From an uncultured Roseburia sp. (lineage in GTDB: Bacteria > Bacillota > Clostridia > Lachnospirales > Lachnospiraceae), in assembly GCA_947573605.1 (NCBI GenBank), contig CANPGM010000011.1:1-64000 (forward strand): 64,000 nucleotides of DNA. The letters run 5' to 3'. The notes under the pieces are model-generated. The model saw only the letters and a program-made list of their open reading frames with translations, made no database searches and was not told the DNA's origin. This document shows positions 38,307 to 59,399 of the stretch, piece by piece. The position numbers and the translations under genes were made by a program. The first letter of the stretch is position 1, and each line of letters begins with the position of its first letter.

Positions 38307-39035
38307 ATGAAGGTGTATATAGATATTCATAATCACACACTGTTTGGCGTGGATGACGGTCCGGAGGAAATGAATGAATCTGTGGCTATGCTGGAACATG
38401 CATTTGAACAGGGAATCGAAGCAGTTATTCTCACCCCCCATTACCGGCACGGCATGTTTGCCTACCGGACGGAGACTGTCGAGCAGCATTTTTCCGAATT
38501 AAAGGCGGAGGCGGACAGAATCGGCATTGCAGTTTATCTCGGATGTGAATATCACGTAAATAGTCAGATGATAGAAGCGCTTCGTTCCGGAAAAGTTCAT
38601 TCGCTTGCCGATACGGACTATGTCCTGACCGAATATTCTTATGAGACCGAGTATTCATACATATCGGAGCATACAAACCGCCTGATTTCCTGCGGCTATA
38701 TTCCGGTTATCGCGCATGTGGAGCGATACGAATGCTTTATCAAAAAACCGCAATTATGCGAAGAGCTTTCCAACCGGGGGGCTTATATTCAGATAAATGC
38801 AGATAGTGTACTGGGATTGGCAGGTAAGATGCCGGAGCGCTGCTGTAAAAAACTATTAAAAAATGAATGGGCGGATATCGTTGCCAGTGATTCTCATGAT
38901 TTGGAAGAACGCAGGAACAATATGGCTCGCTGCTATCAGTTTGTGGCAAAAAAATACGGAGAGCATTATGCCGGCAGACTTTTCTATCGGAACCCGAAAA
39001 AGATCATTCAGGATGCGTCAGTACACGAACTGTAA
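38307..39035 (+). CDS. CpsB/YwqE-type tyrosine-protein phosphatase (PHP family)
   Basis: This 242-residue metal-dependent phosphatase has the PHP start DIHNHTLFGVDDGP, LTPHYRHGMF, IPVIAHVERYECF and VASDSHDLEERRNN, giving the His/Asp/Glu metal ligands. CpsB-type enzymes dephosphorylate the tyrosine tail of the CpsD kinase, setting capsule output. It is first in the locus, ahead of the Wzz-like and kinase genes, the standard Gram-positive order. The GGATGAAGG overlap makes the exact start slightly uncertain. Confidence 0.92.
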   Translation: MKVYIDIHNHTLFGVDDGPEEMNESVAMLEHAFEQGIEAVILTPHYRHGMFAYRTETVEQHFSELKAEADRIGIAVYLGCEYHVNSQMIEALRSGKVHSLADTDYVLTEYSYETEYSYISEHTNRLISCGYIPVIAHVERYECFIKKPQLCEELSNRGAYIQINADSVLGLAGKMPERCCKKLLKNEWADIVASDSHDLEERRNNMARCYQFVAKKYGEHYAGRLFYRNPKKIIQDASVHEL

Positions 39036-39104
39036 AAACAGTATCAAGGCGGATTGAATTGATATAGAGGCAGGCAGAAACAGAATATTAGAAAGGAATA
39101 AATA

Positions 39105-39881
39105 ATGCAGGAAAAATACCAGGATGATGAAGTTGAAATTGACTTGGGAGAACTGCTTTTTGAACTCTTGGGTCATTGGAAGATGATTCTTATGTCTGCG
39201 GTTATCGTAGGAGCGATTGCATTTGTATTCAGTAAATTCCTGATAACTCCGCAGTATGAATCTACAGCCGAATTATATGTATTATCAGAAAGTACATCAA
39301 TCACCAGTCTGGCAGATATTCAGGTGGGCAGTAACCTTACGAACGATTATATCGTTGTTACAAAGGGAAGGCCGGTTATTGAACAGGTAATTGACAATCT
39401 CGGATTGGAAGATGAAACCTACCATACGTTAAAAGATAAAATTACGCTGAATAATCCTTCGGACTCGCGTATTTTGGACATTACGGTTACGGACCCTGAT
39501 CCGGCTCGCGCGAAAAAAATCGCGGATGAAATCGCGGAGGTGGCGTCCGCTTTTATTTCTGAAAAAATGAAGCAGGAGCCGCCGAGAATTACCCAGTACG
39601 GCTATACGGACGGAAATCCCGTAAGCCCGAGCATTCCGAAAAATGTACTGATCGGCGCATTTTTAGGCGCGTTTTTGGCAATGGCGCTTGTGATTATTTC
39701 TTATCTGCTTAACGATACGATTATGGGAGCGGAGGACGTTGAGAAACGGCTTGGCATTAATCTGCTTGGAAGCCTTCCGTTAGAAGAAGACGCGGAAGAA
39801 TACGACGGAAAGTCGAGATCGAAATCCAGGAAAAAGAAAAAGAAATCGTCAGGAAGCAAGCAGACAAAGAAAAGCGCCTGA
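39105..39881 (+). CDS. Wzz/CpsC-type chain-length and kinase-adaptor protein
   Basis: This 258-residue protein has two membrane helices, about 26-45 (MILMSAVIVGAIAFVFS) and about 178-200 (LIGAFLGAFLAMALVIIS), flanking an extracellular Wzz domain. The proline-rich stretch before helix 2 (NPVSPSIPKN) is typical. A cytoplasmic tail rich in Lys and Ser (SRKKKKKSSGSKQTKKSA) ends it. CpsC-type proteins activate the separate tyrosine kinase and affect polymer length; the basic tail could meet the kinase's acidic end. Confidence 0.92.
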   Translation: MQEKYQDDEVEIDLGELLFELLGHWKMILMSAVIVGAIAFVFSKFLITPQYESTAELYVLSESTSITSLADIQVGSNLTNDYIVVTKGRPVIEQVIDNLGLEDETYHTLKDKITLNNPSDSRILDITVTDPDPARAKKIADEIAEVASAFISEKMKQEPPRITQYGYTDGNPVSPSIPKNVLIGAFLGAFLAMALVIISYLLNDTIMGAEDVEKRLGINLLGSLPLEEDAEEYDGKSRSKSRKKKKKSSGSKQTKKSA

Positions 39882-39908
39882 TTAACAGAGGCAGAATGGG
39901 TGTAAAAA

Positions 39909-40697
39909 ATGGAAACAATTGAACTTCGTAATACAAAGGAATTCAGTTATACAAAAAAAGAATCTCTCCGCGCATTAAAAACAAATATACAGTTCTGCGG
40001 AGACGACGTAAAAACAATTATGTTTACAAGTTCCGTCCCGAACGAGGGAAAAAGTACGGTTACGTTCGATCTTGCACGGTCGCTGACAGAATCGGGGAAA
40101 AGCGTTTTATTTATTGATACGGATATGAGAAAATCGGTTTTGGTCGGTCGTTTTCGTGCCAAGACAGAAGGCAAAGATGAAGTTTTGGGTCTTTCTCATT
40201 ACCTGTCGGGACAGAAGAAGCTGACAGAAGTACTGTATGCAACGCAGATTCCCAAGCTGTGTATGATATTTGCAGGGCCGTCCGTTCCGAATCCGACTGA
40301 GATATTGGAAAAGAAATATTTTCTTGACCTGATTGAGTTTGGCAGGCAGCAGTTCGACTATGTGCTGATTGACTGTGCGCCGATTGGAGCCGCGATTGAC
40401 GCGGCGATTGTGGCAAAACACTGCGACGGAGCGGTAATTGTGATTGCACAGGGAATGGCAGGAAGCCGTATGATAAGCGGAGTAAAGAAGCAGCTGGAAG
40501 CTTCCGGCGTGCGTATTCTCGGAGCGGTTCTCAATAAAGTGAAAATGGAAAAGAGCCATTATTACGGATATGGGAAATATTACGGCAGATATTATGGTAA
40601 GTATTACGGCAGATATTACGGAAGCTACTACGGCAGCTATTACGGCAGCTATTACGGAAATTACTATAAGAGAGAGGATGACGAAGAGACTGAATGA
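39909..40697 (+). CDS. CpsD-type bacterial tyrosine kinase with very long Tyr tail
   Basis: This 262-residue BY-kinase has Walker A in SSVPNEGKSTVTFDLA (about 42-57), Walker A' VLFIDTDMRKS and Walker B FDYVLIDCAP. The C-terminus carries 19 tyrosines in 36 residues as (YYGx) repeats, followed by an acidic end REDDEETE. Such kinases autophosphorylate their Tyr cluster in trans, and cycling through the CpsB phosphatase controls capsule assembly. The cluster is much longer than the three to four tyrosines of well-studied CpsD proteins. Confidence 0.93.
   Translation: METIELRNTKEFSYTKKESLRALKTNIQFCGDDVKTIMFTSSVPNEGKSTVTFDLARSLTESGKSVLFIDTDMRKSVLVGRFRAKTEGKDEVLGLSHYLSGQKKLTEVLYATQIPKLCMIFAGPSVPNPTEILEKKYFLDLIEFGRQQFDYVLIDCAPIGAAIDAAIVAKHCDGAVIVIAQGMAGSRMISGVKKQLEASGVRILGAVLNKVKMEKSHYYGYGKYYGRYYGKYYGRYYGSYYGSYYGSYYGNYYKREDDEETE
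40560..40667 (+). repeat. Tandem 12-bp repeats encoding (YYGx)n
   Basis: Degenerate TATTAYGGNARN-type 12-mers encode YYG followed by K, R, S or N. Nine YY pairs lie within 36 codons. The near-identical units could expand or contract by recombination or slippage without breaking frame. Confidence 0.85.
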
Positions 40698-42163
40698 GAC
40701 AGGAGAGAGGTCCAATCCATTTATTAGTGATAGCGGAAGTTATTATATTAGTGATTGTCAGCGTGCTTGGAGTGGTGGAGTCCTTTAAACCGAAAGAAAC
40801 ATCCGAATTTAATGTAGAAGAATCAAGTGAGAATTCTATTCCGGAGCTGCCGACTGAACAGGAAGGCAACAGTGAGACAGCGGAGCCTGAGCCGACGGAG
40901 CAGGAGTCGGAAACGGAATCGGAAGATGATACGGAAGACGAGTCCTCTGCAGTTGCGGAAACATTTCCCGAAGAGGTAGAGACAAAAGTTGCTTCCATGA
41001 CTACGGAAGAGAAGGTGGCGCAGCTTTTTGTGATATCGCCGGAAGCTCTGACCGGTCAGGAAGGAGTAACGATTGCCGGTGAAGGAACGAAAAACGCGCT
41101 TGCACAATATCCGGTAGGCGGACTTGTGTATTCCAATGATAATTACGTAGGGGATCGGCAGGCGGAAGCGCTGCTTGCCGGTGCAGAACAGTTTTCAAAT
41201 GAACGCTCCGGTCTTTATCTGTGGCTTTTGGCTGCGGGAAACGGACAGGACGGACGGCTTATGACGGCGATGTCAAATGATTTTGAGGCAAAGCCGCTGA
41301 CGGCATATATTAAGAAAGAGGATGCGATTCGCACATTACAGTCGAATGAATCTGTATTTTTTCCGATACATTTCCCGGAAAATCAGGATTTGATTGACGA
41401 ATCCGTATTCTGTGTTATGATAAGTAATGCGGCGGATGTTTCCGTTACCGGCCAGGAAGGAGTGCCATGCTGCCTTTCAAAAGAATCGGTCGATTATCTG
41501 CGGAGTACGCTTCACTATAGCGGCCTTATAATGACGGACACTTTGTCCGCAGAGGCGGTTGCTTCGGGATATTCGGCGGGAGAGGCTGCCGTTTTGGCAG
41601 TGCAGGCCGGAGTGGATCTGATTTATCAGCCCGCTGATTTTGCGGCGGCGTATCAGGCAGTGCTTGATGCGGTAAACGCCGGAGGAATTACATCCGAACA
41701 GCTTGATCTTGCAGTAAAGCATATTCTTTCAAAAAAATTGTTTATAAACGCGCCGGCGGCGCCTGATTCGGGCGGCACGGCGAGCAGCGGAGGCAACAGA
41801 GCCGACGCTTCGTCCGGCAATTCTGCAGACGGTAGAAAGCCAAATCAGAACGGTACCGGCCAGCAGGCCGGGAATGACAAACAGCCGGAAAATAACGGCG
41901 GAGGCCAGACGTCTCCTGCGGAAAACAATCCGCCTGCAGGAAACAGTAATTCTCCTGCGGAAAACAATAATCCGCCTGTACAGAACGAACCTCCTGTGGA
42001 GAATAACAATCCGCCCCAGGAAAACAATCCGCCTGAAAACGGCAATGAAAAAGAGCCGGGTGAAGACGACGGGGGAGAAGGAAGCTCGGAAGAAGATAAA
42101 GGAAGCGAAAGCGGCGAAGAAGAAGATCCGGATTCGGACAGCGAAGCAGACGAGGAACCATAA
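40694..42163 (+). CDS. Membrane-anchored GH3-like protein with degenerate active site
   Basis: This 489-residue protein starts four bases inside the kinase stop. It has an N-terminal membrane helix (about 8-28), a Glu/Ser/Thr-rich linker (to about 95), and a GH3-N-like domain (about 97-355) with VASMTTEEKVAQLFVIS, VGGLVYSNDN, GLIMTDTLSAEAV (the nucleophile position in NagZ enzymes) and AGVDLIYQPADFAAAY. The KHFPGHG-type His/Asp loop of NagZ is not found, and the middle of the barrel looks shortened. The last ~130 residues are Pro/Glu/Asn-rich and end in an acidic tail. It is perhaps a glycan-binding pseudoenzyme. Confidence 0.7.
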   Translation: MRQERGPIHLLVIAEVIILVIVSVLGVVESFKPKETSEFNVEESSENSIPELPTEQEGNSETAEPEPTEQESETESEDDTEDESSAVAETFPEEVETKVASMTTEEKVAQLFVISPEALTGQEGVTIAGEGTKNALAQYPVGGLVYSNDNYVGDRQAEALLAGAEQFSNERSGLYLWLLAAGNGQDGRLMTAMSNDFEAKPLTAYIKKEDAIRTLQSNESVFFPIHFPENQDLIDESVFCVMISNAADVSVTGQEGVPCCLSKESVDYLRSTLHYSGLIMTDTLSAEAVASGYSAGEAAVLAVQAGVDLIYQPADFAAAYQAVLDAVNAGGITSEQLDLAVKHILSKKLFINAPAAPDSGGTASSGGNRADASSGNSADGRKPNQNGTGQQAGNDKQPENNGGGQTSPAENNPPAGNSNSPAENNNPPVQNEPPVENNNPPQENNPPENGNEKEPGEDDGGEGSSEEDKGSESGEEEDPDSDSEADEEP

Positions 42164-42194: not shown

Positions 42195-43250
42195 ATGAGA
42201 AAAGAATCGGGTTATAACGGTAAAAAACTGAATAACATTATTATGATTCTATTTGTCGGTATTCTCGCAGTCGCGTTGACGATAGTTGTGGTTCTTGCCG
42301 TAAGGAAGAACACAGAGGCTTCATCTGCGGACAGTACCGAGGAATCTGTGAATACCGAACCAGGTATGGAAGAACCGGAAAAATGGCAGGAAGGAACGAT
42401 AAGCTATAACGGAAAGCATTATCGTTATAATAATCAGATTAAAACGTATCTGTTTATGGGAATTGATAAAGATGATCCGGTCGGCCCCTCGCCTGACAGA
42501 ATCAGCGGAGGTCAGTCCGACTCGCTGTTTTTATTGGTACAGAATGCAAAAGAAGAAACGCTTTCGATTGTTGCAATCAATCGAAATGCCATGACGCAGA
42601 TAGACACCTGTGACGAAGAGGGAAATGCTTTGGGGCAGATTACCGCGCAGATTTGTCTTCAGCATGGATATGGAGACGGGATGGAAATAAGCTGCAGAGC
42701 CAGCGTAGAAGCGGTATCCCGTTTGTTCCGCAACCTGCCGATTAACGGCTATCTTGCTCTTAATATGGGAGCGATTCCGCAAATGAACGATGCGGTCGGC
42801 GGCGTTACGGTTGAGATTATGAACGATTTGGAAAATCAGGGTATGGGTGTCTCGTTAAAACAGGGAGATACCGTAACATTAACAGGAGATCAGGCGTATG
42901 TCTATCTCAGACAGAGAGATATTAATGAATTCGGCAGTGCAACACTTCGTCTGGAACGCCAGAAACAGTTTCTGACGGGCTTTATGGCTAAGGCAAAACA
43001 GGTGGCGGGAGAGGATCAGTCCTCCGTTCTTCGGATTTATAATTCCGTTGAAGATTATCTCGTTACGAATATTGATTTTGTGAGCCTTGCGGGCGAAGCG
43101 TTAGAATATAGATTTGATGAGTCGCTGATGTATACCGTTCCCGGTGAAACTGTTATGGGAGAAGTCTACGAGGAATTTTATGTGGATGAGGATGCGCTTT
43201 ATCAGATGATTCTGGACGTCTTCTACGAAGAAGTAGAAGCGGTACAGTGA
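42195..43250 (+). CDS. LytR-CpsA-Psr (LCP)-like wall ligase
   Basis: This 351-residue protein has an N-terminal membrane helix (about 14-37) and an extracellular LCP domain (about 75-310). Landmarks are KTYLFMGIDKD, GGQSDSLFLLV, LSIVAINRNA, the AVGGVTVEI stretch and TGDQAYVYLRQRD...RLERQKQFL. LCP enzymes move lipid-linked glycans onto peptidoglycan or proteins. The usual PRD near the lipid phosphate site reads NRN here, and the RYR...D element is LRQRD, so it is somewhat divergent. Its presence supports covalent anchoring of this locus's polymer. Confidence 0.85.
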   Translation: MRKESGYNGKKLNNIIMILFVGILAVALTIVVVLAVRKNTEASSADSTEESVNTEPGMEEPEKWQEGTISYNGKHYRYNNQIKTYLFMGIDKDDPVGPSPDRISGGQSDSLFLLVQNAKEETLSIVAINRNAMTQIDTCDEEGNALGQITAQICLQHGYGDGMEISCRASVEAVSRLFRNLPINGYLALNMGAIPQMNDAVGGVTVEIMNDLENQGMGVSLKQGDTVTLTGDQAYVYLRQRDINEFGSATLRLERQKQFLTGFMAKAKQVAGEDQSSVLRIYNSVEDYLVTNIDFVSLAGEALEYRFDESLMYTVPGETVMGEVYEEFYVDEDALYQMILDVFYEEVEAVQ

Positions 43251-43327
43251 TATTAGGTTCAATGGGCAATCCCGGAGAATTTAATATAAACCACATGAAT
43301 AAAGGATGAAAGGAGGGAAATGAGGCC

Positions 43328-43951
43328 ATGAAGAAGAAAATTGCAGTGTTACTTACTGCTTTAATGGTACTCACAATGGGTACTACAGTATTCGCAGCAG
43401 GAAGTTCATCCAGCAACGCTGAGCCGGTTAAGACTCAGGCACAGGTTGCCGCTGAAAAGGAGGCTGAAGCTCTTGCTTCAGGTGTTTCTGCAGGTGCGGC
43501 AGGTATCGTTATTGATGGAGCTGCTTCCACAGTGAACGCTTCCATTACTGCTGTTGCTCCGGCAACGGTAGATTCTGCAAAGAGTGCAGCAACTGTATTA
43601 GCAGGTTCTAATGCAAGTGTATTAAAAGTTGTAAATGTAACACTTCCGGTAAATTTTAAGTCTGTAACCATTACTTTTGCAGTAAGCGGCGTTAAGGCAG
43701 GACAGAGTGTTTCCGTATTACATCAGACAGCTTCTGGTGCATGGGAATTACTTCCGGCTACCGCTGGTAACGGTACAATTACCGCTACATTCACATCTTT
43801 ATCTCCTGTTGCATTTATTGTAAACGGAACGGCAGCTGGTACAGCAGCTTCTCCGAAGACAGGAAACGCATTACCAATTTTCGCAGTTGTTGCAGTTATC
43901 TGCCTTGCAGGTGTTGCAGTATGCGGAAAAAATGTTAAATTTAACAACTAA
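43328..43951 (+). CDS. Secreted Ala-rich surface protein with SPKTG sorting signal
   Basis: This 207-residue protein has a signal peptide (about 1-23, ending VFA) and a low-complexity Ala/Val/Ser-rich body. A small beta-rich domain (about 100-165; SVSVLHQTASGAWELLPA) follows. The C-terminus is a sorting signal: SPKTG (about 175-179), a hydrophobic stretch and a KNVKFNN tail. SPKTG is a known class B sortase recognition motif in Clostridioides difficile, and a sortase B gene is next. Codons are strongly biased to GCT/GCA and GTT/GTA, unlike its neighbours, suggesting high expression. AGGAGGG precedes the ATG region. Confidence 0.85.
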   Translation: MKKKIAVLLTALMVLTMGTTVFAAGSSSSNAEPVKTQAQVAAEKEAEALASGVSAGAAGIVIDGAASTVNASITAVAPATVDSAKSAATVLAGSNASVLKVVNVTLPVNFKSVTITFAVSGVKAGQSVSVLHQTASGAWELLPATAGNGTITATFTSLSPVAFIVNGTAAGTAASPKTGNALPIFAVVAVICLAGVAVCGKNVKFNN

Positions 43952-44013
43952 TTCATATATCTTTTAAAAGGTATATAAAAATGTTCTTAAAAACAACATG
44001 TGGTTAATGGGTC

Positions 44014-44042
44014 GGAGCCGCATTTGCGGCTCTGATTTCATT
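44014..44042 (+). terminator. Probable terminator after the SPKTG protein
   Basis: An 8-bp stem (GGAGCCGC with GCGGCTCT, one G-U pair, ATTT loop) is followed by a T-rich stretch. It could be partial and make the surface protein more abundant than its sortase. Confidence 0.6.
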
Positions 44043-44079
44043 TAAAAAAAGAATAACTGTGTTAAAAGGATAGAGAAAT

Positions 44080-44988
44080 ATGGCTGGAAATAATAAAAGA
44101 GAAGATAATAAGCAGAAAAGGCGTTTATATATAGGTATTATTGCTGTTCTTTTGATTGTTTTGATTGTATGTGTGGGGGTGTTAATCCGTAACGGGATTG
44201 TACAGCGGCGCGCCGAAAAGACATTTGAGGATTTGGCAAATGCAAGTACGGAAGATATGAGAAATACGGACAGCGGAACAGAGACGGAAAAAGAGTCGGA
44301 AACCGAACCGGAGACGGAGGAGGAACCGTCTGCGTCAGGATATGAAATCCCGGAAAAGAACCTGGATTGGGAAGCGCTTCGAGCACAGAATGAACATATT
44401 TACGCGTGGATTTATATTCCCGATACCAACATCGATTATCCCGTTTTACAGCATCCGACGGAGCTAAATTATTATCTGGACCGGAATCTGGACGGCAGTT
44501 CGGGATATCCCGGATGTATTTACACGCAGAATTTAAATGATAAGGATTTCATGGACCCGAATACAATCCTCTATGGACATAATATGAAGAACGGTTCTAT
44601 GTTCCAGAATCTTCATAATTATGAGGACAGTGTATTTTTTGACGAAAACCGCTATGCTTATATTTATACGCCGGACGAAACTTACGTATATGAAATTTTT
44701 GCGGCATATGAATACAGTGATAAGCATTTGTTATATTCATATGATTTTGAAACCCCCGATTCGTTTGACCTGTATCTGGATGAGGTAAAAAGCGTCAGAG
44801 GCATGTCGGATCACATCAGGGAAGAAAGTGAGGTAAACGGCAACAGCCATGTCATTACGCTTTCTACCTGTATCAGCGGTAAACCGAATAACCGCTGGTT
44901 GGTTCAGGCTGTGATGTTAAACGATCCGACGCTTTCGGATAATCCGTCGGATGCAGAAAATAATACGGAGGCAGGGACAGGAGTTTAA
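44080..44988 (+). CDS. Class B sortase
   Basis: This 302-residue protein has an N-terminal membrane helix (about 17-38), a Glu/Thr-rich linker and a class B sortase domain (about 90-285). It has WIYIPDTNIDYPVLQ, the catalytic His in LYGHNMKNG, the Cys in ITLSTCISG and the Arg in NNRWLVQAV. Sortases cleave between Thr and Gly of the sorting motif and join the protein to the wall. The SPKTG protein directly upstream is its expected substrate; no other candidate is in the window. Confidence 0.93.
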   Translation: MAGNNKREDNKQKRRLYIGIIAVLLIVLIVCVGVLIRNGIVQRRAEKTFEDLANASTEDMRNTDSGTETEKESETEPETEEEPSASGYEIPEKNLDWEALRAQNEHIYAWIYIPDTNIDYPVLQHPTELNYYLDRNLDGSSGYPGCIYTQNLNDKDFMDPNTILYGHNMKNGSMFQNLHNYEDSVFFDENRYAYIYTPDETYVYEIFAAYEYSDKHLLYSYDFETPDSFDLYLDEVKSVRGMSDHIREESEVNGNSHVITLSTCISGKPNNRWLVQAVMLNDPTLSDNPSDAENNTEAGTGV

Positions 44989-45043: not shown

Positions 45044-45078
45044 TAAAGTACCGCAAGTGCGGTATGCAGGAGGCATTT

Positions 45079-46530
45079 ATGTATAAACGGGGATTGCAGG
45101 GATGGTTAAAGCATATAGATTTTATCTTTATAGATTATATTTGTATGCAGCTTGCATTTATGCTGGCGTATGCAATCCGTCATGGTCACTGGGTTTTATA
45201 TTTAAATACGGATTACCTGAATATGATGATTGTATTAACGCTCATAGATATTTTTGTGGGAGTGATGTTCGCTTCTTTTAAAAACATATTAAAAAGAGGC
45301 TATTACCGCGAACTGGCTGCGACGGTAAAACATGTCTGCCTGGTTGAGCTGATGTCCGCTTTTTATCTGTTTTCTACACAGCGTGGAGATATTTATTCAC
45401 GAACGGTCTTTTATTTGTTTGTGCCTTTTTATATTCTTTTCAGCTATGGGGCGCGGACGGTGTGGAAACTGTATCTGAAAAAGAAGATTAAAGCCGGAGA
45501 CAAACGTTCCATGCTGATTGTTACAACCGGCGCTCTTTTGGAGAAAGCGATTGCAAATATCATCAATAATAATTATATCGGTGTGACGGTGACCGGCGCG
45601 GCAGTGCTGGACTGTGACAGAAAGGGAGAGGAAGTAAACGGAATCCCCGTTGTCGCCGACCATGAAAATGTCTCGGACTATATATGCAGAAGATGGATTG
45701 ACGAGGTGCTGATTGTTCTGCCGGAAGGAGTGTCCTGTCCCACGGAACTTTTAGATGATTTTCGCACAATGGGCGTTGTAATACATGCTGCAATTGCGGA
45801 AAATATGGCGTCGGGAGGCACAAGGCAGCTGATTGAACGAATCGGCAACTATACGGTTCTGACAACCAGTTTAAATTATGCTACTACGTCACAATTGATG
45901 TTAAAACGTACGATTGATATTATAGGCGGATTGATCGGATGTCTGGTTACCGGCATATTGTTTCTTTTTATAGCGCCTATGATTTATATCAGTTCGCCGG
46001 GGCCGATCTTTTTTGTACAGACCAGAGTCGGAAAAAACGGAAAGCTGTTTAAAATGTACAAATTCCGTACCATGTATATGGATGCGGAAGAGCGAAAAAA
46101 AGAGTTGCTGGCCGAAAACCGGATCAGCGACGGCATGATGTTTAAACTGAAATACGATCCGAGAATCATCGGAAACCGAAAACTTCCCGATGGAACCGTT
46201 AAGGAAGGAATCGGAAGTTTTCTTCGAAAAACAAGTCTGGATGAAATGCCACAAATGTTCAATGTTCTGAAAGGTGACATGAGTCTTGTGGGCACCAGGC
46301 CGCCGACATTGGACGAATGGAAGAAATACGAACTCCATCACAGAGCGAGACTTGCAATTAAACCGGGAATCACCGGAATGTGGCAGGTCAGCGGAAGAAG
46401 CAATATTACGAACTTTGACGAAGTTGTGAAGCTGGATACCAGATATATCAACGAGTGGAGTATGGGACTGGACTTTCGGATTTTATTTAAGACGGTCGGC
46501 GTAGTAGTGAAAAACGACGGTGCGATGTAG
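45079..46530 (+). CDS. Initiating undecaprenyl-phosphate sugar-phosphate transferase (CpsE/WbaP-type)
   Basis: This protein has 483 residues from ATG 45079 (AGGAGG six bases upstream). It has four to five N-terminal membrane helices (to about 120), a Rossmann-like middle domain and one further helix (about 285-305). The C-terminal bacterial sugar-transferase domain contains KRTIDIIGG, FKMYKFRTMYMDAE, LRKTSLDEMPQMFNVLKGDMSLVGTRPP (split) and GITGMWQVSGRS. It transfers a sugar phosphate to the lipid carrier, the first committed step. The sugar is not predictable. Confidence 0.94.
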   Translation: MYKRGLQGWLKHIDFIFIDYICMQLAFMLAYAIRHGHWVLYLNTDYLNMMIVLTLIDIFVGVMFASFKNILKRGYYRELAATVKHVCLVELMSAFYLFSTQRGDIYSRTVFYLFVPFYILFSYGARTVWKLYLKKKIKAGDKRSMLIVTTGALLEKAIANIINNNYIGVTVTGAAVLDCDRKGEEVNGIPVVADHENVSDYICRRWIDEVLIVLPEGVSCPTELLDDFRTMGVVIHAAIAENMASGGTRQLIERIGNYTVLTTSLNYATTSQLMLKRTIDIIGGLIGCLVTGILFLFIAPMIYISSPGPIFFVQTRVGKNGKLFKMYKFRTMYMDAEERKKELLAENRISDGMMFKLKYDPRIIGNRKLPDGTVKEGIGSFLRKTSLDEMPQMFNVLKGDMSLVGTRPPTLDEWKKYELHHRARLAIKPGITGMWQVSGRSNITNFDEVVKLDTRYINEWSMGLDFRILFKTVGVVVKNDGAM

Positions 46531-46571: not shown

Positions 46572-47606
46572 ATGATAATTACAAAGACGCCGTTTCGTAT
46601 GTCTTTTTTTGGCGGTGGAACCGATATTGAGAGTTTTTTTAAAGAAAACGGCGGTGCGGTGCTTTCTACTACATTTGATAAATATTGTTATGTAAATGTC
46701 AGGCATCTGCCTCGTTTTTTTAATTATTCTACAGAACTTACTTATTCCAAAATGGAGCGTGTAACATCTTTGGATGAAATACGCCATCCGGCAATCAGAG
46801 AAGCAATGCGTATGTTGGATATGCATGAAATCAGGCTTACCTATGAAGCCGACCTTCCTGCCCGTTCGGGGCTTGGGACGAGCAGCTCTTTTGCAGTCGG
46901 GATGTTAAATGCATTTTATGCATTAAAAGGAAAATATGCCGATAAGAAAAAACTGGCGGATGAAGCGATTTATCTGGAAAGAGTTCTTTGTGACGAGGCT
47001 GGAGGATGGCAGGATCAGATTGCAGCGTCATTCGGAGGGTTTAACCGCATTAATTTTAGCAGTGATGGATATGAGGTACTTCCCATAATTATTGCGCCGG
47101 AAAGAAAGCGTTGTCTGAATCAAAATCTGCTGATGTTTTTTACCGGTTTTACGCGGCTTTCTTCTGAAGTTCAAAAAGCGAACGGCGCAGGAGGAGGAGA
47201 CAAAACTGCGCAGTTAAAAGAAATACTTTCTCTTGTCGATGAAGCGGAAAGGATATTGACGGATAAAACAGGTGATTTGGATGAGTTTGGAAGGCTGCTT
47301 GACCATACGTGGAAATTGAAGCGTCGGACGGGAGCCGCCGTTACAACAGATGATATCGACTCCTTATATGCAAAGGGGATTGCGGCGGGGGCTCTGGGAG
47401 GAAAGCTTCTCGGAGCCGGCGGAGGCGGATTTCTGCTTTTTTATGTGCGGCCAGAATATCAAAATGCCGTTAAGGAGACAATGAAGGATTTACTCTACGT
47501 ACCGTTTGAATTTGAAAATGGCGGTACCAGGGTCATCCATTATACGCCGGAAAGTTATGAACCGCGGGAAAACAAAATTAACTGTAAATCAGGAGACGGG
47601 TTATGA
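46572..47606 (+). CDS. hddA: D-glycero-alpha-D-manno-heptose 7-phosphate kinase
   Basis: This 344-residue GHMP kinase has the start TKTPFRMSFFGGGTDIESF, the phosphate-binding LPARSGLGTSSSFAVG (about 95-110) and the C-terminal GGKLLGAGGGGFLLFYV. These match HddA, which phosphorylates the anomeric carbon of heptose 7-phosphate. Its neighbours supply the rest of the GDP-heptose pathway (hddC-gmhB fusion, gmhA), which makes this assignment firm. The gene overlaps the next by four bases. Confidence 0.92.
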   Translation: MIITKTPFRMSFFGGGTDIESFFKENGGAVLSTTFDKYCYVNVRHLPRFFNYSTELTYSKMERVTSLDEIRHPAIREAMRMLDMHEIRLTYEADLPARSGLGTSSSFAVGMLNAFYALKGKYADKKKLADEAIYLERVLCDEAGGWQDQIAASFGGFNRINFSSDGYEVLPIIIAPERKRCLNQNLLMFFTGFTRLSSEVQKANGAGGGDKTAQLKEILSLVDEAERILTDKTGDLDEFGRLLDHTWKLKRRTGAAVTTDDIDSLYAKGIAAGALGGKLLGAGGGGFLLFYVRPEYQNAVKETMKDLLYVPFEFENGGTRVIHYTPESYEPRENKINCKSGDGL

Positions 47607-48937
47607 AAGTTGTAATAATGGCCGGCGGAAAGGGAACCAGGATTTCTTCTGTTGCACGCGATATTCCAAAGCCAATGATTCAAATAGAAGGAAAGCCCGT
47701 ACTGGAACATGAGATTGAGTGCCTTTGCGCGCAGGGATTTAAAGAGATAATTTTGACGGTCGGTCATTTAGGAGGCGTGATTACAGACTATTTCGGAGAC
47801 GGCAGTAAAATTTCTCCGGTGACAGGAAAACCGTTTGGCGTAAAGATTGAATATTATATCGAAAAAGAGCCGTTGGGAAACGCGGGCGCTCTTTTTCAGA
47901 TAAGGGATCAATTAAAGGAAGATTTTTTGCTGTTAAACGCAGACGCTGTGTTTGATGTAGATTTTAACAGGTTTGTAGAGTATCACAGGAAAAAAGGCGG
48001 ACTGGTTACGTTGTTTACGCATCCCAATAGTCATCCGTATGACAGCGGATTGATTTTCGCAGATAATGACGGCGCTGTGGTACAGTGGTTGACAAAAGAG
48101 GATAACAGACCGGAGTTTTACAAAAACCGCGTCAATGCGGGGCTTCATGTAATTTCTCCGAAGGTATTGGAAAGAGCGGCGTTTGAGATGGAACAGGAGA
48201 AAAGTGTTTCCATAGACGACAAGCCAATAAAAGTTGACCTTGACAGACAGATTCTAAAGCCTCTGGCCGGAAGCGGGAAGATGTTCTGCTATGACAGTCC
48301 CGAATATGTCAGAGATATGGGAACGCCGGAACGATATGAGTCGGTCTGCAGAGATTTTAGAAACGGGAAGATACAAATGAAAAATCTGAAGAGAAAACAA
48401 AAAGCAATTTTTCTTGACAGGGATGGAACGATTAATCAATATGTCGGATTTTTACGACGGGCGGAAGAATTTAAACTACTGCAGAATGCAGCAAAGGCGA
48501 TAAAAAAAATCAATGATTCGGGCTATCTTGCAATTGTGATAACAAATCAGCCTGTGATTGCAAGAGGTGAGACAACGTATGATGAATTGGAACAAATACA
48601 CAATAAAATGGAAACGCTTCTGGGTGAAAATGGGGCGTATCTGGATGGGATCTATTTTTGTCCGCACCACCCGGACCGGGGATTTGTGGGCGAAGTAGAA
48701 GAATTAAAGATTCATTGTAAATGCAGAAAACCGCAGCCGGGAATGCTTTTACAGGCTGCATTGGATTTCCATATTGATTTAGGCAAGTCATGGATGATTG
48801 GCGACGGAGAAACGGATGTCAGGGCGGGAATCGCTGCAGGATGTAAAACAGCGCTAATCAGTAGGGAAAACAAGGATTTTGGCCAGACGGTTTGCGTAGA
48901 GTCACTGGAACAATTTGCGTTTGAATATTTGGAATAG
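47603..48937 (+). CDS. HddC-GmhB fusion: heptose-1-P guanylyltransferase and heptose bisphosphatase
   Basis: This 444-residue two-domain enzyme has a sugar nucleotidyltransferase at about 1-250 (VVIMAGGKGTRISS, KPMIQIEGKPVLEHEIE, FLLLNADAVFDVDF, VNAGLHVISP). A HAD-IIIA phosphatase occupies about 260-440 (AIFLDRDGTINQYVGFL, the Cys/His zinc loop CPHHPDRG...CKCRKPQPGM, WMIGDGETDVRAG). One protein would remove the 7-phosphate and then add GMP to give GDP-heptose. Fusions of this type are known in some bacteria. Whether the nucleotide is GDP is inferred from hddA and the GMD-like dehydratase. Confidence 0.9.
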   Translation: MKVVIMAGGKGTRISSVARDIPKPMIQIEGKPVLEHEIECLCAQGFKEIILTVGHLGGVITDYFGDGSKISPVTGKPFGVKIEYYIEKEPLGNAGALFQIRDQLKEDFLLLNADAVFDVDFNRFVEYHRKKGGLVTLFTHPNSHPYDSGLIFADNDGAVVQWLTKEDNRPEFYKNRVNAGLHVISPKVLERAAFEMEQEKSVSIDDKPIKVDLDRQILKPLAGSGKMFCYDSPEYVRDMGTPERYESVCRDFRNGKIQMKNLKRKQKAIFLDRDGTINQYVGFLRRAEEFKLLQNAAKAIKKINDSGYLAIVITNQPVIARGETTYDELEQIHNKMETLLGENGAYLDGIYFCPHHPDRGFVGEVEELKIHCKCRKPQPGMLLQAALDFHIDLGKSWMIGDGETDVRAGIAAGCKTALISRENKDFGQTVCVESLEQFAFEYLE

Positions 48938-48968
48938 ACAGCAGAAGACTGGAAACATGAGGGATGAA

Positions 48969-49625
48969 ATGAAAACGCTGGATCGGAAGCTACGAAAGCA
49001 TATGGATTTACTTTTAACTCGTTATCCTGCGCTGGAAAGTATCAAACAGAATATTATTGATGCATATCTGGTTATGGAAGAGACTTATAAAAACGGAGGC
49101 AAGCTTTTAATTGCGGGCAACGGCGGCTCTGCTGCGGATTCGGAGCATATTGCGGGAGAACTGATGAAGCGGTTTAAAACACCCCGTCCGGTGAGTGAGG
49201 AATTTGCCCGAAAGCTGATTGCAGTTGACCCGGAGCGGGGAAAAGAACTGGCAGTAAATTTGGAGTGCAGTCTGACAGCGATTCCGCTGGTGTCTCATGA
49301 GGCATTAACTACGGCGTATATTAATGATGTGGATGGGCTGGGAGTATTTGCACAGCAGCTGTTCGGATATGGAAAGCCGGGAGATGCATTTCTGGGTATT
49401 TCTACCTCCGGCAACAGTAAAAATATTTTGAATGCAACCGTGGTTGCCAGAGCATTAGGGATTCAGGTAATCGGTCTTACCGGTGCAAAAGGGGGCGAGC
49501 TGTCGCTGGTTGCAGATATATCAGTAAATGTGCCGGAAACAGAAACGTATATGATTCAGGAACTGCATCTGCCGATTTATCACTGCTGGTGTCTGATGCT
49601 GGAAGATTATTTTTTTGGAGAGTAA
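48969..49625 (+). CDS. gmhA: Phosphoheptose isomerase (SIS domain)
   Basis: This protein has 218 residues from ATG 48969 (GAGGGATGA upstream); ATG 48957 has poorer spacing. The SIS domain has LLIAGNGGSAADSEHIAGELMKRF (split) near 42-66, FLGISTSGNSKNI and the C-terminal LHLPIYHCWCLMLEDYF. GmhA converts sedoheptulose 7-phosphate to D-glycero-D-manno-heptose 7-phosphate, the entry step of the pathway. A conserved insert (PVSEEFARKLIAVDPERGKEL) is longer than in the E. coli enzyme. Confidence 0.92.
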   Translation: MKTLDRKLRKHMDLLLTRYPALESIKQNIIDAYLVMEETYKNGGKLLIAGNGGSAADSEHIAGELMKRFKTPRPVSEEFARKLIAVDPERGKELAVNLECSLTAIPLVSHEALTTAYINDVDGLGVFAQQLFGYGKPGDAFLGISTSGNSKNILNATVVARALGIQVIGLTGAKGGELSLVADISVNVPETETYMIQELHLPIYHCWCLMLEDYFFGE

Positions 49626-53703: not shown

Positions 53704-54432
53704 ATGATTCCAAAACGGATTCATTATTGTTGGTTTGGGAGGAATCCTTTGCCGCAGGATGTAAAAAAATGTATGGAATCCTGGAAACGGTTCTGTCCTG
53801 ATTATGAAATAACGGAATGGAATGAGTCTAATTTTGATATAAACTGCCATCCGTTTGTAAAAAGCGCATATGAAGCAAAGGCATGGGCGTTTGTTTCGGA
53901 CTACGCGAGATTGAAAGTTGTCTATGATCATGGCGGCATCTATTTGGACACAGACGTAGAGCTTCTGAAAAATCCTGATTTTTTGCTGAATTATCCGTGT
54001 TATATCGGAGTTCAGCAAGTAGGACATTTTTGTACGACGGGATTGGGCTATGGAGCCGTTAAGGGGAATCCAACCGTAAAGCGAATGATAATGCAATATG
54101 ACGGCCTGGTCTATAAAAAGGAAGATATAGAAAATGTCGTATGTCCCAGGATGAACCATAAAGTGATGGTTGATCTGGGATACCGATTTTGTAATGAAGT
54201 CACAGAGACAGAAGGCGTACTTATTTTACCGCCGCGCTACCTTGATCCGCTGGCGCCGGGTGATACCACAAATTTATTATGCAAAGATACTGTTTCTATT
54301 CATCATTACTCCGCAAGCTGGACATCGACATCAAATAAGTGGAAGAGAAAAATTTTTCGGATGATAGGTGCGGAAAGACTTTATAAGGTAAAAAGATTTC
54401 TAAAGTATAAAAAGAAAGAGAAGCTCGAATGA
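53704..54432 (+). CDS. Glycosyltransferase with DXD motif (GT32-like)
   Basis: This 242-residue protein has the family start IPKRIHYCWFGRNPLP, the central AFVSDYARLKVVYDHGGIYLD (split) and DTDVELLKNPDFLL with the metal-binding DXD. The C-terminus has VSIHHYSASWTS. It resembles capsular and OCH1-type GT32 transferases. It probably adds mannose, galactose or a similar sugar to the repeat unit. It overlaps the polymerase gene by four bases. Confidence 0.87.
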   Translation: MIPKRIHYCWFGRNPLPQDVKKCMESWKRFCPDYEITEWNESNFDINCHPFVKSAYEAKAWAFVSDYARLKVVYDHGGIYLDTDVELLKNPDFLLNYPCYIGVQQVGHFCTTGLGYGAVKGNPTVKRMIMQYDGLVYKKEDIENVVCPRMNHKVMVDLGYRFCNEVTETEGVLILPPRYLDPLAPGDTTNLLCKDTVSIHHYSASWTSTSNKWKRKIFRMIGAERLYKVKRFLKYKKKEKLE

Positions 54433-55661
54433 AGGTAACGAAGAGACAGATTTTATATGCCCTCCTTTTTTTATCGGTTATATTGAATTCTATAATGGTT
54501 CAGTACGTGATCGGTATGAACTATTTTGACGAACTGGCAGCCTTGTTTTCTTTTACTTATATAATATTTCATTGGCGTAAAGGAATGCAAAAAAGATATT
54601 TTAATGTTGTAATGGTTGTTGCCGTTATAATTGTAATTGGTCTGACGGGAAATCTGATATGGTCCTATCAGGAAGGCGGGCTTGTTGTCATAAAGGATAT
54701 TGTTGCATTTTCTAAAATGCCGGTTACAATGGTAGCCCTATCGATGTGGAGCGATAAAAAAAGTAATGACAGTGCGCTTGAAGCTGCATATACGTTGTCT
54801 AAGATTATTTTGACAATTATGTTTGTATTTGCAATTATATCGTTGTTTGTTGATATCGGCATGTCTCACGATGTTAGAAGGGGTATCAGTTCTTTTAGAT
54901 TTTTATTTAATCATCCGACCTTTCTGGTTTACGCGGTAGTTGTAATGTCTGTTGTAATGGTTGCACATGGAATACAGCGTAAGGATATAAAATATCATAT
55001 TGAGGCGATCGCTCTATTGATTTTAAGTATGCGTGATAAAGCATTTTTGTATTTGGTTGCATACGTCTTTTTGCTAATCTTGATTCCGAATATTAAACGG
55101 ATTAAGATTCGGTATATTATCATTGTGGGTATAGCCGGACTGGTAGTATCTTACAGTAAAATTATGGCCTATTTATCTTATTCGTGGTCGCCTCGTGCCG
55201 GAATGTATTTGACCGGTTTTCAACTGCTCAGGAAGTGTTTCCCGATAGGAAGCGGGTTCGGAACGTTTGCAAGTCCGCTGTCCGGTGAGTATTATTCAAA
55301 AGTATATTATATGTATGGTTTCAGCAGAATACCTGGAGTAAGTCCCAATAATTATGAGAATTTGGGGGATGCCGGATGGCCGTATTATTACGGGCAGTTT
55401 GGAGTGATCGGATGTTTGCTGTTTGCGTTTATACTTTTCTCGCTGTATAAAATAATTGTTCGTAAATACCTTGTGCTGGAATGGAAAAGAAAAGCGGCGT
55501 ATCTTATGCTGGCGTATCTTTTTATTGCTTCGTTGGTGGAGAGTATTTTTATTAACGAGGCAGGCGTAACATCTATGATCGTTATTTTTGTATTTTTAGG
55601 GCAAGAAGCGTTCATAAAATCCGATCAGACGGGACAAATCGAAAATGGGCAAAAATTATGA
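54429..55661 (+). CDS. Wzy-like polysaccharide polymerase
   Basis: This 410-residue integral membrane protein has about ten to eleven hydrophobic segments. A large loop near 255-320 is rich in Gly, Pro and Tyr (RAGMYLTGFQLLRKCFPIGS, GFGTFASPLSGEYYSK), typical of O-antigen polymerase loops. Sequence families are poorly conserved, so the call rests on topology and on the position between transferases and flippase. The region is AT-rich compared with the housekeeping genes. It overlaps the acyltransferase gene. Confidence 0.75.
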   Translation: MKVTKRQILYALLFLSVILNSIMVQYVIGMNYFDELAALFSFTYIIFHWRKGMQKRYFNVVMVVAVIIVIGLTGNLIWSYQEGGLVVIKDIVAFSKMPVTMVALSMWSDKKSNDSALEAAYTLSKIILTIMFVFAIISLFVDIGMSHDVRRGISSFRFLFNHPTFLVYAVVVMSVVMVAHGIQRKDIKYHIEAIALLILSMRDKAFLYLVAYVFLLILIPNIKRIKIRYIIIVGIAGLVVSYSKIMAYLSYSWSPRAGMYLTGFQLLRKCFPIGSGFGTFASPLSGEYYSKVYYMYGFSRIPGVSPNNYENLGDAGWPYYYGQFGVIGCLLFAFILFSLYKIIVRKYLVLEWKRKAAYLMLAYLFIASLVESIFINEAGVTSMIVIFVFLGQEAFIKSDQTGQIENGQKL

Positions 55662-56667: not shown

Positions 56668-56677
56668 GGATATGGTA

Positions 56678-58126
56678 ATGAAAGCAGGTAAAGTGATAAA
56701 TAAGTATAAAAATCTGTCGGAACCTGTCAAAGCTTCGTTCTGGTATACAATCTGCAACGTTTTGAATAAGGGGATCGCGCTTTTGTCCACTCCGATTTTT
56801 ACAAGAATACTCACGGAGGAACAGTACGGTACGTTCTCCATTTTTCAATCCTGGTTTAGCATTATTCTGATCTTTACCTCTTTTAATATTTTTTTGGGAG
56901 GCTATACAAAAGGGCTGCTTCTATACAGAGATAAAAGAGATGAATTTACATCTTCCTTGTTATCTTTGACAACATTGATTACAATGGTATTTGCAGCAGC
57001 GTACGTATTAAACATAGATTTCTGGACAGATGTTTTTGAGTTATCTCCCGTGCTTATGCTGGCGATGTTCATAGAGCTTCTGACAATGCCGGCTTTGGAA
57101 TTTTGGTCGGCGCGGGAAAGATTCGATTACCGTTATAAAAAATATGTAGCGATTTCTGTCGCAATGAGCATATTAAGTCTGGGAGGAGGCGTTGTCGCCG
57201 TACTCAGTACGTCCTGTAAAGTTGAAGCAAGGGTATATTCCGATGTAATTGCAAAGGCGATATTTGCGGGAACCCTGTTTGTACTTGTTCTTGCGAAAGG
57301 CAGGAAATTTTTTGACAGAGCTTACTGGAAGTACGCGCTTGCTTTTAACCTGCCGCTGATTCCTCATTATTTATCTAATTATGTGCTGAACCAGTCCGAC
57401 CGTCTGATGATTGGCCGGATGGCCGGAGCCGAACAGGCTGCATATTACAGCGTTGCATATACAATTTCTACTATGGCGGTATTAATTACTACTTCGATTA
57501 ATAACTCGCTGACGCCATATATTTATAAATCCATTGATACCGGAGAAAAAACAGGGATTAAGAAGGCGACGCAGCCGCTGATTCTTCTGGTTGCAGGGCT
57601 TAGCGTTCTGACAATGGCCTTTGCTCCGGAAATCATTCTTCTGTTTGCCGGAAGAAAATATGCGGACGCAATCTATGTAATTCCGCCGATTGCAGCCTCC
57701 GTTTTTTTTATTTTTCTATATTCGTTGTTCAGTACAATAGAATATTTTTATCAAAAAACGGGGTTTATTGCAGTTGCGACATGTATCAGCGCAGGTTTAA
57801 ATCTGGTTTTAAATTATCTCTTTATTTCTCTGTACGGCTATTATGCAGCGGGATATACGACACTGGTGTGCTATATTTGCCTCGCGGTTATGCATTATGC
57901 GTTTTATAAGAAAGTATTGAGAAAAGAAATGCCGGAGATTAGAAACTTATATGATATGAAATTGATTTTGGTTACGGCATCGGCCGTACTTCTCGTTATG
58001 CTGGTAATGGCGTTTACTTACCATATGTATCTGATTCGTTACGGAATCATTGTAATCCTGTTTGCAGTTGGGATTGGGAAACGTAAAAAGATAGCGGCGG
58101 CCGTACGGGGATTTTCAAAAAAGTAG
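56678..58126 (+). CDS. Wzx-type polysaccharide flippase (MATE/MOP superfamily)
   Basis: This protein has 482 residues from ATG 56678 (AAGGATATGGTA upstream). It has twelve or more hydrophobic segments. The MOP-family features are PVKASFWYTICNVLNKGIALLSTPIFTRILTEEQYG (spread over the first helix) and FNLPLIPHYLSNYVLNQSDRLMIGR. It would move the lipid-linked repeat unit to the outer face for Wzy polymerisation. The neighbours Wzy, Wzz and the initiating transferase complete a Wzx/Wzy pathway. Confidence 0.9.
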   Translation: MKAGKVINKYKNLSEPVKASFWYTICNVLNKGIALLSTPIFTRILTEEQYGTFSIFQSWFSIILIFTSFNIFLGGYTKGLLLYRDKRDEFTSSLLSLTTLITMVFAAAYVLNIDFWTDVFELSPVLMLAMFIELLTMPALEFWSARERFDYRYKKYVAISVAMSILSLGGGVVAVLSTSCKVEARVYSDVIAKAIFAGTLFVLVLAKGRKFFDRAYWKYALAFNLPLIPHYLSNYVLNQSDRLMIGRMAGAEQAAYYSVAYTISTMAVLITTSINNSLTPYIYKSIDTGEKTGIKKATQPLILLVAGLSVLTMAFAPEIILLFAGRKYADAIYVIPPIAASVFFIFLYSLFSTIEYFYQKTGFIAVATCISAGLNLVLNYLFISLYGYYAAGYTTLVCYICLAVMHYAFYKKVLRKEMPEIRNLYDMKLILVTASAVLLVMLVMAFTYHMYLIRYGIIVILFAVGIGKRKKIAAAVRGFSKK

Positions 58127-58156
58127 TTATTTGAATTGGTCAGAGGGGAGGCTTTG

Positions 58157-59374
58157 ATGAGCATAATAGGATACCTGAGGAAAAACGGAGTAAAACATGC
58201 GTTAGACGTCATCTATCAGTACAAAATAGATCTGTTTCTGCAGAAACTAATGCTTCCGTTTTTAAAAAAGAAACCGCTGAAAGATGTGATTCTGATAGAA
58301 AGCCATGATGATTTTGACTGTAACGGAGGGGCGTTTTATGACTATCTGATTGCCGGCGGCTATCACAGAAAATATAAAATTGTGTGGCTGTTAAAACATA
58401 AGATTCCGAAAAAGCTTCCCCCGAATGTGGAGGCGTTTCATCTGTACAAGCCGGGAATAAAAAAGGATTACTATATATGTAGGGCCAAGTACTTTCTTGC
58501 CGATAATGTTGTGACAAACAAGGTGAGAAAGGAACAGCTTTCTTTCTATTTGTGTCATGGCGCATTCGGATTAAAAAATTGCGTGGGTATGCTGAATCTG
58601 CCGGAAAGTGTAGATTACATCGCATCTTCTTCAAAAAATTATGATCCGATCCTTTCCGTACAGGTCGGCAGAGCATACCCGAATCAATCCATGATTCATA
58701 CCGGTTATCCGTTTCATGACGTGATATTCCAGGAGCATGTTGAAAATGAGGTAAAAAAGATTTCGGATAAAGAGTATCGGAAAACAATTATCTGGATGCC
58801 GACGTTCCGTAAGGGCGGCGGATTCCGAAGAAACGACAGTGTCGACGAACAGCCGCTTGGACTGCCTCTGATAAAAAGCAGGGAAATGCTGCAGGCGCTG
58901 CAGGACTATTTGGAAAAAGAGAATGTATTGATGATAATTAAGATACATCCCAAGCAGGATCCGTCGACGATTAAGGACCTGGAAAGCCTTGAGAATATCA
59001 AGGTCGTTACCGGTCTTACGATGAAGGAACTCAATCTGAATAATTACAGAATGATAAGGGATGCAGACGCTTTAATCAGTGATTACTCTTCTATTGCTTA
59101 TTCCTTCCTGCTGCTGAATCGCCCGATCGGATTTGTTTTGTCTGATTTAAGCAGCTATAAGCTGGGACTCGTCGTTGAAAATCCGGATGAGTTTATCGTC
59201 GGCCCCAAGATTTATACCTTTGAGGATTTTATCAGCTTTTGTTCCGATGTGGTAAACGGACGGGATGCGTTTGAAGCGAAACGAAAAAAGGTAATTGACT
59301 GGCTTTATGAAGACTGTGACGGAAACAGCTGCGCGCGGCTGGCTGAATTCATGGGACTTGAAAGGCCAAAGTAA
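58157..59374 (+). CDS. CDP-glycerol glycerophosphotransferase-like (TagF/TagB family)
   Basis: This protein has 405 residues from ATG 58157 (GAGGGGAGG upstream). The conserved C-terminal GT-B domain has YLCHGAFGLKN, IWMPTFRKGGGFRR, IIKIHPKQD and DADALISDYSSIAYSFLLL. The family transfers polyol phosphates such as glycerol phosphate from CDP donors. No tagD-type CDP-glycerol synthesis gene is seen, but a CDP-choline-forming enzyme is next. A CDP-linked donor made by the neighbour is therefore worth considering, though TagF-like use of CDP-choline is not established. Confidence 0.87.
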   Translation: MSIIGYLRKNGVKHALDVIYQYKIDLFLQKLMLPFLKKKPLKDVILIESHDDFDCNGGAFYDYLIAGGYHRKYKIVWLLKHKIPKKLPPNVEAFHLYKPGIKKDYYICRAKYFLADNVVTNKVRKEQLSFYLCHGAFGLKNCVGMLNLPESVDYIASSSKNYDPILSVQVGRAYPNQSMIHTGYPFHDVIFQEHVENEVKKISDKEYRKTIIWMPTFRKGGGFRRNDSVDEQPLGLPLIKSREMLQALQDYLEKENVLMIIKIHPKQDPSTIKDLESLENIKVVTGLTMKELNLNNYRMIRDADALISDYSSIAYSFLLLNRPIGFVLSDLSSYKLGLVVENPDEFIVGPKIYTFEDFISFCSDVVNGRDAFEAKRKKVIDWLYEDCDGNSCARLAEFMGLERPK

Positions 59375-59399
59375 CGGCGGAAGCAGAGGGTATTTGGTA

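Follow-up and report, generated by a model that had tools for sequence, protein, structure and literature searches.

The stretch analysed here, referred to as the window, comprises 64,000 nucleotides (positions 1 to 64,000 of contig CANPGM010000011.1) from an uncultured Roseburia sp. (GCA_947573605.1), whose genome is a 3.08 Mb draft that is 97.4% complete. The features of the capsule locus described below are located on its plus strand. From position 38307 onwards, the genes encode, in order, a CpsB phosphatase (38307..39035; PF19567, 269 bits, cut-off 27), a CpsC chain-length/co-polymerase protein of the Wzz type (39105..39881; PF02706), a CpsD tyrosine autokinase (39909..40697; TIGR01007, 196.4 bits, cut-off 108.05), a protein with a GH3 domain (40694..42163), an LCP glycopolymer transferase that belongs to a separate subtype (42195..43250), a small surface protein with an SPKTG sorting motif, hereafter the SPKTG protein (43328..43951), a class B sortase, SrtB (44080..44988), and a WbaP-like initiating sugar-phosphate transferase (45064..46530; PF02397, 206.8 bits). 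A preliminary description of this DNA had reported the LCP transferase, the SPKTG protein and the sortase, here called the trio, between the capsule regulators and the initiating transferase, and we confirm this arrangement: the trio is flanked by CpsB/C/D (38307..40697) on one side and by the initiating transferase (45064..46530) on the other.

Relatives of the SPKTG protein are present in 46 of the 299 genomes of the family (E ≤ 0.001, window genome included). The 57 places outside the window genome were all examined, up to about 9 kb on either side, and the sizes given refer to the whole open frame in which each match lies. Forty-five of them are frames of fewer than 350 residues, one protein (G022:C30) being counted twice. 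The LCP subtype lies within 5 kb of 36 of these 45 small relatives, a related sortase of 31 and both of 29, while CpsB/C/D genes are found within 10 kb of 24. None of the 12 SPKTG-type places in frames of at least 350 residues exhibits the LCP subtype, the sortase or Cps genes. Linkage, which the preliminary description presupposed, is thus conserved, and small SPKTG proteins accompany the LCP subtype (36/45) more often than the Cps genes (24/45). These counts comprise LCP matches of at least 250 bits and sortase matches of at least 230 bits, and absences are to be read as upper bounds because several contigs end near the gene of interest. Locus L111, which is the same DNA as L005, was kept among the 57 places and dropped from the His/Ser, LCP-subtype, hairpin, codon, order, tree, distance and sortase-less-pair counts given below; SPKTG matches below 60 bits or in frames of at least 350 residues were dropped from the His/Ser, hairpin, codon, order, distance and sortase-less-pair counts.

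The same association is observed when the search is anchored on the other genes. Of the 40 best-scoring sortase places in the genus, 37 were examined, and these exhibit the LCP in 31 cases, an SPKTG-domain match of any score in 30 and Cps genes in 22. CpsB was found at 42 places in 37 of 60 genomes; nine of these places carry the LCP subtype, seven of the nine together with a related sortase, whereas among the other 33 no sortase of at least 230 bits is present and an ordinary LCP is present in five. Across the class (391 genomes), 23 of the 26 places of the LCP subtype other than the window's own were examined as loci, with looser cut-offs (sortase matches down to 129 bits, SPKTG-domain matches down to 31 bits; L238 and L239 coincide with L103 and L204). 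A sortase or SPKTG-domain match lies within 1.5 kb in 17 of these 23, compared with none of six ordinary LCPs, and the linkage extends outside the family of the window (L240-L245, L247, L248, L250 and L251). Taken together, the CpsB-, sortase- and LCP-anchored surveys reject chance co-occurrence. Plain adjacency of a sortase and its substrate is likewise insufficient as an explanation, because the LCP-SPKTG pair (36/45) is at least as tight as the sortase-SPKTG pair (31/45) and also occurs without a nearby sortase.

The order of the three genes is not conserved. In 59 loci, we found SrtB-LCP-SPKTG in 22, LCP-SPKTG-SrtB in 20, LCP-SrtB-SPKTG in five, SrtB-SPKTG-LCP in four, SPKTG-LCP-SrtB in four and extra copies in four. 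The genes are therefore kept together while their order shuffles through at least five arrangements. Some loci depart from the simple trio. The SPKTG gene or the whole trio is duplicated in L105, L107 and L171, and in L101, L104, L166, L202 and L206 the LCP and the sortase are present while the SPKTG-domain match is a frame of 77-107 residues, in some cases with a sorting motif.

The sortase (302 residues) belongs to class B (TIGR03064, 158.3 bits, cut-off 153.75) and exhibits the catalytic-cysteine motif TLxTC in the form TLSTC (44857..44871). The window genome encodes three sortases. In a tree of 79 sortases, 66 of which have the LCP within 3 kb, the one in the window clusters among those sortases of relatives that are linked to the LCP, and the other two fall in a clade with two unlinked sortases (support 0.93). 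A scan of the window genome for the codon pattern of S-P-K-T-G with a loose first position, a scan confined to signals of this type among the possible S-P-x-T-G signals, returned 14 places, of which two truly spell S-P-K-T-G. The second of these, on contig C62, has a stop directly upstream, which leaves the protein in the window alone with this motif in the draft. Since only two of 14 places spell the motif and the other sortases are of a different clade, the pair can be regarded as dedicated, as had been suggested. The SPKTG protein is probably the substrate of the sortase encoded next to it. The combination of a class B sortase with an SPKTG-type motif resembles SrtB of Clostridioides difficile and its (S/P)PXTG substrates, as described in the portions of that literature covered here, with the difference that in the window both the putative substrate and the sortase are encoded in a capsule locus, where an LCP accompanies them.

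The LCP transferase (351 residues) scores 73.4 bits against PF03816 (cut-off 24.6) and 62.7 bits against TIGR00350 (cut-off 62.3). The window genome contains one ordinary LCP besides, which reaches 118.8 bits against PF03816, compared with 75.6 bits for the LCP of the window in the same genome scan. We compared 79 members of the subtype with nine ordinary LCPs from the same loci. Gly89, Asp91, Asp109, Arg130, Arg241 and Arg252 are invariant in all 79 members. One difference is at the arginine of the GRSD motif, which is replaced by glutamine in 72 of the 79 (Q107 in the window protein, giving GQSD) and is an arginine in seven of the nine ordinary LCPs. Position 152 is a glutamine in 68 of the 79 and mostly a lysine in ordinary LCPs; Cys167 is common to 68 of the 79, and the window sequence contains no cysteine after it. 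In LcpA of Actinomyces oris, R149A and R266A abolish glycosylation of the sortase-anchored protein GspA, whereas R128A does not (PMC6381275, in the parts consulted). If R128 is the GRSD arginine, which is our reading made without an alignment, the subtype has lost exactly the arginine that is dispensable in A. oris.

The SPKTG protein (207 residues) comprises a signal peptide and, at residues 175-179, the sorting motif (43850..43864), followed by a hydrophobic segment and a short basic C-terminus. It matches no Pfam family at E ≤ 0.01. It is single-copy in the window genome at E ≤ 1, which removes an explanation by paralogues. Its codon usage, described previously as biased, is indeed exceptional: of the 54 plus-strand frames of at least 150 residues in the window, it deviates most (z = 17.3; the runner-up reaches 9.7), and its usage follows that of EF-Tu (r = 0.749, second of 54), compared with 0.49 for the LCP and 0.525 for the sortase. 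The LCP, SrtB, CpsD and initiating-transferase genes of the window have z values below 1. Across the examined loci, the median z of the SPKTG gene is 4.59 (72 genes), as opposed to 0.22-1.36 for CpsB, CpsC, CpsD, LCP and SrtB, and in 42 of 63 loci no other gene among these deviates more. Judged from codon usage, the SPKTG protein seems to be produced in bulk, in contrast to the catalytic proteins encoded around it.

For Gram-positive bacteria, the common view is that LCP enzymes link capsules directly to peptidoglycan. The gene content described above suggests another arrangement. A polymer would be made on a lipid carrier by the Wzx/Wzy route; the specialised LCP would take it off this carrier and load it on the abundant SPKTG protein, or on some component that this protein retains; and the class B sortase would join the SPKTG protein to peptidoglycan, so that the capsule would be kept on the cell via a protein. 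We consider it about as probable as its negation (roughly 0.5) that the SPKTG protein keeps the capsule on the cell in this way, most simply with the LCP loading it as in A. oris, a reading based on the genes and on analogy with two known systems.

The first of these is the srtB4 cluster of Mediterraneibacter gnavus ATCC 29149 (RGna_12030-12060; PMC13121745), to which the window can be likened by the gene types given in the text of that paper, as both combine genes for a sortase, an LCP and a CpsB-type phosphatase in a capsule cluster. There, srtB4 is needed for the India-ink halo, for Alcian-blue-stained polysaccharide and for surface fibres, and complementation restores the capsule; the LCP and phosphatase genes are also needed, with LCP mutants likewise impaired in halo and polysaccharide signal (PMC13121745, in the parts covered). 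The same parts of the paper establish no substrate for srtB4 and set out no LCP subtype; candidate proteins near sortases are presented in its Supplementary Fig. S4b, which lies beyond those parts and may already include the SPKTG protein. The trio would explain the srtB4 result: the sortase would have to anchor a protein to which the capsule is attached. As the locus tags of the M. gnavus LCP and sortase are consecutive, the substrate gene would lie outside that pair, and we predict that it is RGna_12030.

The paper on M. gnavus takes its LCP to attach the capsule to peptidoglycan (PMC13121745, parts consulted), and this route is the basis of an alternative that we consider possible but distinctly less probable, in which the LCP follows its usual route and ties the polymer to peptidoglycan, while the wall-bound ZU5-like protein holds or spaces this polymer non-covalently. 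The apparent abundance of the SPKTG protein and its predicted beta-sandwich, in which the core motif is the only evident acceptor site, are consistent with such a role, which nevertheless leaves unexplained why one LCP subtype, and not LCPs generally, travels with the SPKTG protein and why the LCP-SPKTG pair occurs without a nearby sortase.

The second known system is LcpA/GspA of A. oris, LcpA being presented as the first LCP for which glycosylation of a wall-anchored protein was demonstrated (PMC6381275, parts consulted). There too the LCP gene lies beside the gene of a sortase-anchored protein, as it does within 5 kb for 36 of the 45 small SPKTG relatives, and it is by gene neighbourhood that we liken the LCP of the window to LcpA, which mediates the glycosylation of GspA. 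The two differ in that A. oris uses the housekeeping sortase SrtA whereas the window locus has a class B sortase, and in that LcpA has a C179-C365 disulfide whereas the LCP of the window has no C-terminal cysteine (PMC6381275, same parts). A. oris also shows that sortase phenotypes can be indirect, because its sortase gene is essential and mutations in gspA and lcpA suppress the lethality (PMC6381275). By analogy, the SPKTG protein could be an independent surface protein that merely shares the operon, and the capsule loss of a sortase mutant could result from unanchored protein jamming the membrane or the LCP. This is unlikely, given the order-shuffling co-conservation with one LCP subtype across genera and families, and given that M. 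gnavus without srtB4 grows in vitro at a rate comparable to that of the wild type (PMC13121745, parts consulted).

Several observations weigh against a capsule held by the SPKTG protein. One or both partners are absent within 5 kb of 16 of the 45 small SPKTG proteins, six of which have neither partner nor Cps genes, and a few of the 57 matches span only the N-terminal part of the query. The LCP/SPKTG pair is absent from seven of the 37 genus sortase places, both partners are absent from six of the 23 LCP places of the class, and the module is absent from most of the sampled CpsB loci (33/42). In seven loci (L135, L143, L145, L148, L150, L152 and L158, some near contig ends), the LCP-SPKTG pair is present without a sortase of 230 bits in the examined stretch, and in L152 the SPKTG-type protein has no sorting signal. 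Over 35 loci, the distances of the SPKTG protein, in favour of the module, correlate better with those of the sortase (r = 0.72) and the LCP (0.69) than with those of CpsB (0.59) and CpsD (0.52), but those of the LCP track CpsD (0.85) and CpsB (0.84) more closely than the SPKTG protein (0.69); co-evolution of the LCP with the SPKTG protein is therefore not singled out. Finally, the LCP of M. gnavus is assigned the peptidoglycan route in the corresponding paper, as mentioned above. The preliminary description had suggested that one locus fixes both a polymer and a companion protein to the wall, the latter as organiser or attachment point. This is partly supported, namely by the conserved linkage, the dedicated pair and the need for a sortase in capsule display at a locus from the literature with matching gene types (PMC13121745, parts consulted), whereas the SPKTG protein as acceptor, carrier or organiser of the polymer is a putative role that we only infer. 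The ZU5/FIIND-like character of the protein and the separate LCP subtype go beyond that description.

The structural model of the SPKTG protein predicts, with medium confidence, a ZU5-like beta-sandwich at residues 55-168 (43490..43831), of which residues 55-70 are modelled with low confidence. His132 (43721..43723) is in register with the catalytic histidine of NLRP1, and Ser159 (43802..43804), located in an S-L-S motif, is the sole invariant column in an alignment of 44 sequences. The spacing of 27 between these residues equals that of H942 and S969 in rNLRP1, with a leucine in the window protein in place of the phenylalanine. In the SPKTG family, the histidine is present in 66 of 72 and the serine in 67 of 71 members, proportions that are not unbiased because the loci were picked as SPKTG-protein or sortase matches; the survey of all 57 places given above is the fairer one. 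The commonest spacing is 28 (range 26-39), and leucine instead of phenylalanine precedes the serine in about half of the members.

In profile searches, the window protein shows no match to the Pfam FIIND family at E ≤ 1. Among 44 single members of the SPKTG family, FIIND is matched in ten at E ≤ 1 (best 8.5e-4), below the cut-off where bit scores were seen. When the FIIND profile (PF13553) was searched against 60 genus genomes, nine matches at E ≤ 1 were obtained in eight genomes, the best with 18.5 bits and none over the cut-off of 25.8. Five of the nine, including the top three, lie inside SPKTG genes (L084, L082, L080, L091 and L092) at profile positions 74-127, as judged by comparing coordinates by eye. 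The remaining four, of which one is from the window genome, align to different parts of the profile and lie in frames of 27-144 residues, and the SPKTG protein of the window is not among the nine. Sub-cut-off FIIND matches also occur in five of 14 control genomes. A sequence search of solved structures with the family alignment gave 18 matches at E values of 0.059 or worse, none to a ZU5 domain, and no UPA domain was found in the SPKTG protein, in which only a linker and the sorting signal follow residue 168.

The spacing of 27 and the S-[F/L]-S site and, with less certainty, the predicted fold resemble those of the autoproteolytic ZU5/FIIND/GPS domains of NLRP1, CARD8 and PIDD and of bacterial surface ZU5 proteins (PMC3482391). 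The SPKTG protein differs from them in lacking a UPA domain, in remaining below the Pfam FIIND cut-off, in being a small stand-alone anchored protein and in that its self-cleavage is only putative. From the His-Ser pair and an S-[L/F]-S site like that of NLRP1 and CARD8, the SPKTG protein might cleave itself. One can imagine, as a rather improbable extension, a self-cleaving ZU5 anchor in which the chain is cut between Leu158 and Ser159 and a polymer-bearing N-terminal part stays packed by beta-sheet pairing on the wall-bound C-terminal strand, forming a releasable capsule link, or in which the serine ester is captured by a sugar hydroxyl to make the protein-polymer bond. Capture of an ester is known from Hedgehog autoprocessing, where the acceptor is cholesterol.

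FIIND/ZU5 domains also act in regulated switches in animals (PMC3210808 and PMC8081665, in the parts covered). Together with the linkage to CpsB/C/D (24 of 45 small relatives), this could indicate that the ZU5-like domain senses the state of the wall or polymer and tunes the LCP or CpsBCD. We consider such a checkpoint very improbable, as EF-Tu-like codon usage suits a bulk structural protein more than a sensor and the predicted protein has no cytoplasmic domain.

A sortase in a capsule locus (2026) and the glycosylation by an LCP of a sortase substrate encoded beside it (A. oris) are already known. Within the literature searched, which covered titles and abstract openings and had subscription papers and supplements outside its scope, no SPKTG substrate or ZU5 domain was tied to a capsule locus; the trio as a conserved, order-shuffling module of Clostridia, its LCP subtype, the small abundant protein and its ZU5/FIIND-like core thus appear to be new. 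PMC13121745, in the parts consulted, shows that a gut commensal requires a sortase to display its capsule and leaves unexplained why a protein-anchoring enzyme should matter for a sugar polymer. The trio offers a direct answer, namely a protein anchor, and names a candidate sortase substrate in each genome that bears it. Its persistence in many related bacteria points to capsules that, in some cases, are attached to the cell through an anchoring protein, and it would connect this attachment with a fold whose self-cleavage is known from inflammasome proteins of animals. Further loci can be found by their signature, comprising a GQSD-type LCP and LH...WE...S[LF]SP...SPKTG.

Between the SPKTG and sortase genes of the window, a hairpin (44012..44035) is a possible attenuator (fold of 43952-44079, -33.4 kcal/mol). 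It is followed by a poor T-run, fails the T-run rule and was missed by the terminator scan. A terminator-like hairpin is located within 120 nt after the SPKTG gene in 20 of 72 cases, after LCP in 6/74, SrtB in 2/76, CpsB in 0/47, CpsC in 2/47 and CpsD in 8/49, which is only suggestive of a conserved attenuator after the SPKTG gene.

With regard to the neighbouring genes, the GH3-domain gene (40694..42163), absent from the preliminary description, separates CpsD from the LCP. Its product exhibits a GH3 N-terminal domain, an N-terminal transmembrane segment, an apparently degenerate N-terminal half and a long tail rich in Pro, Asn and Glu. It is present in only part of the loci, namely seven of those examined for it (L075-L079, L090 and the window). 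In part of the genus (L081, L083-L089, L092 and L094), what follows the sortase is, in place of the initiating transferase, a conserved protein of roughly 630 residues together with two smaller proteins (roughly 200-230 and 280-296 residues).

In the window, the initiating transferase is followed by a GHMP kinase, a nucleotidyltransferase-HAD fusion and a SIS isomerase (46572..49625), probable heptose-precursor genes that resemble what we take to be the GDP-heptose route, here in a Gram-positive capsule locus. Glycosyltransferases, a presumed Wzy polymerase (54429..55661), an acyltransferase and the Wzx flippase (56672..58126) come next. The earlier assignment of a Wzx/Wzy locus is backed for Wzx by PF01943; the Wzy call comes from position and the look of a membrane protein, and a Pfam scan of this protein gave no family at E ≤ 0.001. 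After Wzx, the region 58136..63829 encodes a TagF-like transferase, a fusion of helix-turn-helix, nucleotidyltransferase and choline-kinase domains, an SSF transporter and a BCCT (choline/betaine-type) transporter, genes from which it may be read that the polymer carries phosphocholine.

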